From a virus, in IMG/VR virus record IMGVR_UViG_3300032737_000059, positions 1-32,810 of that record: 32,810 nt of DNA, one strand, 5' to 3'. Shown piece after piece: positions 4,062 through 5,768 of the stretch. Each line of letters opens with the position of its first letter. Within the stretch, counting starts at the first letter, position 1. The notes under the pieces were generated by a model. That model was not told the DNA's origin. It ran no database searches and saw nothing but the letters and a program-made list of their open reading frames with translations. A program made the translations under genes and the position numbers.

Positions 4062-4667
4062 ATGAGTAGAAAGACACTAGAATTTTACACAATAGAGACC
4101 GGGCGGTATATGCGGCTAGTAGTGGAAACCCTTACCGGCGGCTCAAATGTTTACAATGTAGAAATTGACGCCTACCCCGGCGATCGAAACCCGCTAGACA
4201 TAGCCGTAACGTCCAAGGATCGCGCCGAGCGATTATATTTAATGCTTGCTAGCAACAATTTCGCTTTTAGTAAAAGGACCTCTCCCCTTCCCCCGGCGAT
4301 TGATTCCCGCCCGGACTTTAACCGTCCAGAGAATAAACGAAAATTAACTATCGTATCTATGGACCTGGTTAAATGTACGGCCGTAGTGGCTGTAAGTTTT
4401 TTACCCAGCCCCGACCCGCTCGAGGATCATCCTCAAGTTACTGAAATTCGCTATAGAGTAAGAGGGCTAATGTCTCACGCCGGCCCTACTATTGAATATA
4501 GATTTAGCAAGCCTACAACCCTACCACATATTGACGACGTTATCCTGATTAACGCCCACCTGGAACGGATCGGCCAGGCCCTCGAGGTAGCTAGAGCTAA
4601 TAACGAATTAACGGAAATATTTAACGATAATATTCTCGGGAAAACCCCGAAAACGAGCGAAAAATGA
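4062..4667 (+). CDS. Early hypothetical protein (201 aa)
   Basis: Preceded by CCCAGGAGG, the same strong ribosome-binding site as its neighbour. The product is soluble, with no signal peptide and no clear motif; a central stretch is rich in Pro and basic residues (about 70-95). The stop overlaps the start of the Toprim-like gene in an ATGA junction, so the two are translationally coupled and may work together. Confidence 0.6.
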   Translation: MSRKTLEFYTIETGRYMRLVVETLTGGSNVYNVEIDAYPGDRNPLDIAVTSKDRAERLYLMLASNNFAFSKRTSPLPPAIDSRPDFNRPENKRKLTIVSMDLVKCTAVVAVSFLPSPDPLEDHPQVTEIRYRVRGLMSHAGPTIEYRFSKPTTLPHIDDVILINAHLERIGQALEVARANNELTEIFNDNILGKTPKTSEK

Positions 4668-5284
4668 GACAAGTAGACGAGTTTACCCGGACCTGGATAA
4701 TAGACCGTGCCCTCCCAATAATAAATAACTACGGCTCTGAGCTTACGCTTAGGGCTTTACATTACCGTTTGGTAGCCCTGGGAATGACTAACTCGCTCCA
4801 GCATTATAAGCGGGTTATCGGGGCTATGACAAAAGCTCGCTGGGAGGGCCTGGTTAGCTTTTCCTCTTTTGTGGACCACGACCGCTCGGTAGAGGGTCGG
4901 ACTAAGGCCGAGCCTACGGACCTGGACGATGAAATCGCGACGGCTGAAAACGCTATACTGTTATGGATGAACGAATACGCGAAAAATCGCTGGGAAAACC
5001 AGCCGTATTACGTAGAGGTATTCATAGAAAAAAAGGCTCTTCAGGGAGTATTCGCTCGGCCTTGCTCGCGTAAAGGCGTAGCCCTTTGTCCCTGTAAAGG
5101 TTATCCTAGTCTTACGTATCTTGATTTGGCCGCCGATCGTTTCCGCGAGGCAATGGATAGGGGCCAGGACCCGGTAATACTTTATTTCGGTGATTACGAC
5201 CCCTCAGGCGAGGATATACCCCGGAATATTGGGGACACTCTTAGCCGTATGGGCGTAGACGTAGAAATTAAAGGCCAGCCTTAA
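4664..5284 (+). CDS. Topoisomerase VI A / Toprim-like protein, apparently C-terminally truncated
   Basis: This 206-aa protein begins with a winged-helix-like region (LTLRALHYRLVALG, about 27-40) followed by a Toprim-type fold. EVFIEKKAL (118-126) supplies the acidic and lysine residues and ILYFGDYDPSGEDI (172-185) the DxD motif (D177, D179). The same order occurs in a family of phage and bacterial proteins related to the SPO11/TopoVI A Toprim domain, which bind metal and act on DNA. Those relatives usually continue about 80-100 residues past this point with conserved PAK..D.R and SWELDAL-type segments. Here the frame stops right after the DPSGED helix (EIKGQP), and neither other frame restores the tail. 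It may be a shortened but active version or a decayed gene. Confidence 0.65.
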   Translation: MRQVDEFTRTWIIDRALPIINNYGSELTLRALHYRLVALGMTNSLQHYKRVIGAMTKARWEGLVSFSSFVDHDRSVEGRTKAEPTDLDDEIATAENAILLWMNEYAKNRWENQPYYVEVFIEKKALQGVFARPCSRKGVALCPCKGYPSLTYLDLAADRFREAMDRGQDPVILYFGDYDPSGEDIPRNIGDTLSRMGVDVEIKGQP

Positions 5285-5309: not shown

Positions 5310-5441
5310 ATGGCTATCGAAAAGGAGGTCCAGGAGCTACTATTTAGAATAATAGCTCTAACGAGAGCTTTTGCCAAGGGGCTTTCTAGCTGTAAGGCTC
5401 TGGAAACGATAGCTAAACACGGTAACGCTATCGGAATTTAA
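5310..5441 (+). CDS. Possible small protein (43 aa)
   Basis: An ATG with only a weak purine stretch (GGGG) upstream opens a 43-codon frame rich in Ala, Leu, Lys and Glu, probably a short amphipathic helix hairpin. The frame is also open upstream through the end of the Toprim-like gene. It stops at the first base pair of the tRNA-like element. It has no recognisable family; coding status is uncertain. Confidence 0.35.
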   Translation: MAIEKEVQELLFRIIALTRAFAKGLSSCKALETIAKHGNAIGI

Positions 5442-5502
5442 ACCCGATAACTGGACGAGGTCGTGTGTCCGGCCCCTCCTGGTTCGACTCCAGGATCGGG
5501 AG
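5442..5502 (+). other. tRNA-like element lacking one arm (tRNA remnant or attachment-site candidate)
   Basis: A canonical T-arm is present: CCTGG (5478-5482), loop TTCGACT, CCAGG (5490-5494). It is followed by ATCGGG (5495-5500), which pairs with CCCGAT (5443-5448) as an acceptor stem. Between them only one hairpin fits: CTGGAC (5451-5456) with GTCCGG (5467-5472), one wobble, around a 10-base loop containing GG like a D-loop. At about 61 nt it lacks either the anticodon or the D arm, so it is not an ordinary tRNA. It could be a tRNA with an internal deletion, a tRNA-like RNA, or a 3'-tRNA copy of the sort phages use as attP. No integrase is visible in the window. Confidence 0.55.
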
Positions 5503-5525
5503 CTAATTAACTTAGGAGGTATTAA

Positions 5526-5768
5526 ATGGTATTACCTAACAAATTAACTGAGGATATAATCCGGCGGGATAACCCTCATTTTGGACCGGTGATAAGAGTA
5601 GTCGAGGAGGTTGAGCCCTACACTAGCGAGGGGTTTGATTTCTCTTTTAAAATAACTGTAGGGGCTCACCACAGTAAATTTATGGACGAGCCTAATACAT
5701 TAATCGACGCCTGGGCTACGTACCTATGGAGTCCGTCCTGCGACGAATGGGTTCTCGGGGCTAATTAA
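5526..5768 (+). CDS. Hypothetical protein (80 aa)
   Basis: AGGAGG lies a few bases before the ATG. The small acidic protein has two His and two Trp residues near its C-terminus and no recognised motif. It opens a run of small early genes spaced by 10-20 bases. Confidence 0.55.
   Translation: MVLPNKLTEDIIRRDNPHFGPVIRVVEEVEPYTSEGFDFSFKITVGAHHSKFMDEPNTLIDAWATYLWSPSCDEWVLGAN

Follow-up and report, generated by a model that had tools for sequence, protein, structure and literature searches.

A 61-nt reduced tRNA-like element between two genes of a phage operon

What is a tRNA-like fold that lacks one arm doing between two genes of a phage? The fold lies on a phage contig from IMG/VR; the window, that is, the whole stretch of 32,810 bases analysed here, is fragmentary, and carries genes for a terminase, a major head protein, an Erf-type annealing protein, a replication protein and a Toprim protein. 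A preliminary description of the locus proposed a decayed tRNA, a phage attachment (attP) core or a tRNA mimic, and this interpretation survives in part: the attachment site is not supported, a decayed tRNA is possible, and the tRNA mimic is strengthened. The element may best be seen as a tRNA-derived, non-decoding RNA module, possibly an intercistronic signal for RNase P and RNase Z, a reading that we put forward tentatively and with more doubt than confidence.

Anatomy and gene setting of the element

The fold described earlier at 5442-5502 is confirmed in its six-pair acceptor stem, its perfect T-arm and its one hairpin (Table 1), and an arm is indeed missing: the 29-nt middle holds just this hairpin, in place of a D-arm plus an anticodon arm with a 7-nt loop. 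The dinucleotide AA (5449-5450) joins the 5' acceptor strand to the hairpin, whose 8-nt loop contains GG. The hairpin can be read either as a D-arm-like arm or as an anticodon arm that is enlarged and has no readable anticodon. The six acceptor pairs are accompanied by an A1·A72 mismatch, and the bases that follow G73 are CTA, not CCA.

Table 1. Features of the element and of its surroundings (window coordinates)
Feature	Position	Strand	Basis
Toprim (DNA topoisomerase-like) gene, about 90 C-terminal residues absent	4664..5284	+	
43-aa orphan ORF between Toprim and the element; its stop codon abuts the element	5310..5441	+	
TATCGG, competing partner for the 5' acceptor strand	5429..5434	+	context folding
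Reduced tRNA-like element, 61 nt, A1 to G73	5442..5502	+	sequence, fold, architecture scan
5' acceptor strand CCCGAT, preceded by A1 (5442)	5443..5448	+	pairs with 5495-5500
Single 22-nt hairpin CTGGACG-AGGTCGTG-TGTCCGG, 7 pairs	5451..5472	+	fold
Linker CCCCT, 5 nt, variable-loop-like	5473..5477	+	sequence
T-arm CCTGG-TTCGACT-CCAGG, perfect five pairs, consensus T-loop with G53-C61	5478..5494	+	
3' acceptor strand ATCGGG (5495-5500), A72 (5501), discriminator-like G73 (5502)	5495..5502	+	sequence
AGGAGG, ribosome-binding site for the 80-aa ORF; its complement CCTCCT (5475-5480) lies within the element	5514..5519	+	
80-aa ORF downstream of the element	5526..5768	+	

Folded alone with RNAfold, positions 5442-5502 adopt the tRNA-like structure as their minimum free energy state (-24.2 kcal/mol). 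When a 262-nt mRNA context is folded, the acceptor stem has a pairing probability of only about 8%, because the upstream TATCGG takes its 5' strand.

The operon between 3679 and 7420 consists of tightly packed genes with gaps of at most 26 nt, the sole exception being an 84-nt intercistronic gap made up of the element and a normal leader with AGGAGG. Upstream, the Toprim protein is truncated (206 aa versus about 290-296 aa in relatives), and its C-terminus is not encoded elsewhere in the window. Damage to Toprim recurs, since a frame change after about 100-150 codons breaks the gene in L017, L018, L019 and Parabacteroides phage PDS1 (L009). In two Bacteroidota-type phages, a tRNA-Gln(UUG) gene lies some kb downstream of a related Toprim gene (L055:9384-9457 and L069:4321-4392).

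A 24-mer from the element has zero exact copies in IMG/VR, no second copy of the exact element was found, and searches with Toprim, ORF 4062 and ORF 5526 revealed no phage carrying the same element. The closest homologue of the downstream 80-aa ORF, in L027, has no such element upstream of it. Two contigs, L002 and L003, probably belong to the same virus as the window, having an identical terminase; they begin near window position 12.2 kb, and the element locus is outside both. That both start near one window position (about 12173 and 12196) looks as if coverage or strain content shifts there.

Might an intergenic stretch simply resemble half a tRNA by chance? When G-U pairs are tolerated, the architecture arises in 7-15% of dinucleotide-shuffled windows; the fold energy is ordinary (z -1.05 versus shuffles); and the Rfam tRNA model RF00005 has no match to the element even at an E value of 10. 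All three observations are what a chance likeness would give. Against it, the all-Watson-Crick architecture occurs in 0.25% of shuffled windows, the element occupies the operon's single long non-coding gap, and comparable elements are present elsewhere (see below). We therefore hold chance to be improbable. The window contains a single consensus T-arm on its two strands, that of the element.

Kinship with tRNAs

A canonical, intron-containing or mitochondrial tRNA gene and a tmRNA gene were all rejected, as ARAGORN, run in its normal, intron and mitochondrial modes, calls nothing there, and Rfam gives no hit. One trait of the tRNA model RF00005, a 7-bp acceptor stacked on a 5-bp T-arm with a TTCRA loop, is nevertheless recognizable in the six pairs plus mismatch and the perfect T-arm, and by its sequence the 3' half is clearly tRNA-like. 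Weak BLAST matches to the element fall at tRNA 3' ends (Gln, Asn, Phe) in 17 of 19 phage records, the best being the tRNA-Gln of Microbacterium phage Hendrix; they include tRNA-Asn genes of Dibbivirus that are unannotated at those places. The Dibbivirus genomes DIBBI and PSKM (L028:1453-2046 and L029) contain several unannotated tRNA genes, tRNA-Asn among them.

Within IMG/VR, a single true tRNA has the relaxed T-arm/acceptor sequence: the tRNA-Gln(CUG) of L026, a phage rich in tRNAs. Its acceptor, T-arm and G73 are nearly identical to those of the element (acceptor ACCCGAT/ATCGGGT with G73, versus ACCCGAT/ATCGGGA with G73), and the Hendrix tRNA-Gln agrees with it in the T-arm and over most of the 3' acceptor strand. 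Both tRNAs differ from the element in being full cloverleaves, with a D-arm and an anticodon, that ARAGORN calls. Over the acceptor strands, T-arm and G73, 29 of 32 positions match between L026 and the element, 20 of these positions being fixed or partly fixed by the search pattern. Since part of the agreement is thus forced, tRNA-Gln is a suggestion for the source of the element, not a proof.

These similarities are what would be expected of a decayed phage tRNA, probably a tRNA-Gln, that lost its D-arm and anticodon loop and persists as a functionless relic. Such a history would also agree with the presence of a tRNA-Gln some kb downstream of Toprim in the Toprim-carrying phages AS73P1 and G012, and with the truncation of the adjacent Toprim gene. 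On the other hand, the T-loop is undamaged, as is every one of the 18 pairs that remain, and the hairpin in the middle is neither a canonical D-arm nor a canonical anticodon arm. Of the earlier proposal of decay, the derivation of the 3' half from a tRNA, with phage tRNA-Gln as the nearest, stands, while intact pairing and a non-canonical hairpin speak against simple erosion. Decay is a serious possibility that still falls short of probable; it is the main rival of a processing signal, and almost as likely.

Another proposal was that the element is an attP core equal to the 3' end of a host tRNA and used for site-specific integration; indeed, phages commonly use tRNA 3' ends as attachment sites (PMC9897764). 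However, the 21-nt T-arm/acceptor 3' end is absent from all 84,980 prokaryote species genomes searched, and a relaxed form of the 3' end gave five matches among about 85,000 species genomes, none of them in a tRNA. Moreover, a scan of the larger window ORFs turned up no integrase, the contig being a fragment; CCA is absent; and the 5' acceptor strand is present and matches, although an attP core needs none. We therefore reject this interpretation, which retains very little probability. Elsewhere, in the record of L027, there is a tRNA-Val-like 3' half (L046, G008:58900-59300) with an anticodon arm, a T-arm and CCA, which from its sequence looks like an attP site. It lacks a 5' acceptor partner and differs in this, and in its anticodon arm and CCA, from the element of the window.

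Reduced tRNA-likes in other phages

Short tRNA-like sequences were searched for in IMG/VR with a pattern in which the acceptor sequence was fixed to that of the element. The pattern occurs at 11 places, seven of which have a T-stem of four or five pairs. The other four (L034, L038, L039 and L041) were discarded as chance matches: they lie inside open reading frames and have no proper T-stem. The seven retained places represent three other phage lineages with reduced, unannotated tRNA-likes, namely family A, a single lineage of five contigs (L035, L036, L037, L040 and L043), L033 and L042. Members of family A are laid out as an acceptor, a canonical D-arm containing GG, a mini hairpin (about four pairs) where the anticodon arm would be, and a T-arm. 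The mini hairpin of L033 has a GAAA loop. The best reading of L042 is a 76-nt element with a 7-bp acceptor, a D-arm, a 4-bp mini hairpin with a 3-nt loop, and a T-arm. Each of the seven records contains only one such T-arm.

A fourth lineage has a 41-nt minihelix (L044/L067), in which seven acceptor pairs and only ten bases in the middle are found. The phage that carries it is that of the L012 record, and its Toprim shares 61% identity with the one in the window; from shuffles, 0.2 elements are expected in 323 kb of Toprim-phage DNA. The acceptor shared by family A, L033 and L042 follows by construction from the search pattern, which fixes it, whereas the minihelix was found otherwise. ARAGORN calls none of these elements, the minihelix included, and Rfam gives no call for family A, L033 or L042. 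In the open-access literature, we found no phage tRNA-likes of this kind.

The reduced tRNA-likes sit between genes, and in the cases checked 18-27 nt separate their end from the following ATG. The element of the window shares the traits of the group: it is intercistronic, has an acceptor and a T-arm, has a shortened or absent anticodon arm, and ends within this distance of an ATG. It differs in having a single hairpin, whereas family A, L033 and L042 have a D-arm and a mini hairpin. The preliminary description had held that absence from related phages and from bacterial tRNAs would count against its reading; formally this applies to close relatives, and no tRNA with the 3' end of the element turned up among about 85,000 prokaryote species genomes, yet the architecture recurs in other phages. 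The tRNA-mimic reading is strengthened by this recurrence of unannotated forms, which occupy comparable intercistronic positions in phages that are unrelated. In family A, the mini hairpin is kept in all five contigs despite changes in its loop, which indicates that reduced forms can be maintained and argues against decay.

Family A also bears on the idea of a recombination scar, in which the tRNA-like 3' end would mark a junction where cassettes enter, as a scar or target in DNA rather than as an RNA. Homology among family A members breaks off where the element ends on its 3' side, give or take a few bases: L036 and L040 have an extra 938-nt PAPS-reductase-like cassette there, compared with about 21 nt in L037 and L043. 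The earlier observation of a truncated Toprim just upstream in the window was correct and may point the same way. Nevertheless, ordinary modular exchange at gene borders yields the same picture, the scan of the larger window ORFs found no integrase, and the 3' flank in the window resembles the leader of the L027 homologue over a few bases only. A recombination or insertion site thus seems unlikely to us, if less so than chance.

A possible processing signal

The presence of look-alikes between genes in several unrelated phages suggests that the element may serve as a signal for RNA processing instead of being a functional tRNA. Among the readings considered, such a signal fits the anatomy and position best, given the binding mode of RNase P, the cleavage of other non-tRNAs and the precedent of mascRNA and menRNA. 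RNase P binds the stack of T-stem-loop and acceptor, and the D-loop seems dispensable (PMC4919913). The M3 RNA of phage phi80 and other non-tRNAs are substrates of RNase P (PMC11143913, PMC10731613). RNase P and RNase Z cleave two reduced tRNA mimics, mascRNA and menRNA, the former of which is not aminoacylated (PMC11693755).

In this scheme, the module would have retained the acceptor stem, the T-arm and one arm of a tRNA, the nearest being a phage tRNA-Gln, and would have lost the ability to decode. Its locus, which directly follows a stop codon and precedes the next start codon by 25 nt, would fall within a polycistronic early transcript. Host RNase P would recognize the acceptor/T-arm stack and cut at about 5441/5442, and RNase Z would perhaps cut after about 5501-5502. 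With these cuts, the message upstream would acquire a defined 3' end, and a short leader would be left to the next gene. The analysis itself establishes the anatomy of the sequence, the tRNA-like character of its 3' half, its position and the recurrence of reduced forms between genes of unrelated phages; we infer transcription of the element, its folding in the cell, its cleavage and a benefit to the phage. The stack is predicted to have 11 pairs and one mismatch; in non-tRNA substrates of RNase P of the M3 RNA and mascRNA type, a stack of about 12 bp ends at the cleavage site. Several points weigh against the model. Within the surrounding mRNA, a competing hairpin is predicted to prevail over the acceptor stem (P ~0.08 for the stem). 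Recognition by RNase P would also be weakened by the mismatched first acceptor pair (1-72) and by the lack of an RCCA 3' end.

The known systems resemble the element to various degrees. The mascRNA and menRNA, tRNA-like RNAs at the 3' ends of MALAT1 and MEN-beta, have a similar small tRNA-derived shape with acceptor and T-arm (PMC11693755); as in the element, the other arms are altered, there is no usable anticodon, and the RNA directly follows another transcript. They differ in being human nuclear RNAs with a small D-arm bearing elbow guanines and a longer anticodon-like stem, and their cleavage is established, that of the element only proposed. The M3 RNA, also from a phage, and other non-tRNA substrates of RNase P likewise have a tRNA-like acceptor/T-arm stack (PMC11143913, PMC10731613). 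The element, whose cleavage is putative, lacks an RCCA end, and the likeness is one of shape. D-armless mitochondrial tRNAs also lack one side arm; they are active tRNAs of animal mitochondria that keep their anticodon, in contrast to the element, which has no recognizable 7-nt anticodon loop (PMC7609411).

Alternatively, the element could act in cis as a translation switch, in which its T-stem CCTCCT would pair with the downstream AGGAGG whenever the tRNA-like fold is absent. Folding of 5430-5525 predicts that the ribosome-binding site is paired with the T-stem strand; when 5442-5525 is folded, the prediction is the tRNA-like structure, which leaves that site unpaired. A six-base complementarity to a ribosome-binding site could, however, easily arise by chance in a GC-rich stretch, and other reduced tRNA-likes precede genes without such a site, so that we give this switch little credence.

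A broader version of the processing signal is that unrelated phages carry an unannotated class of non-decoding, reduced tRNA-likes that lie between operon genes and serve as RNase P/RNase Z punctuation of their mRNAs, with the element of the window as a member. This extension is conceivable, and we consider it rather unlikely at present. As tRNA finders miss such elements, many small tRNA-like RNAs may lie hidden in phage genomes. If the elements are relics, they record how phage tRNAs get lost. If they are processing signals, phages would cut their own messages with host tRNA enzymes, a step that would have to be added to models of operon expression.
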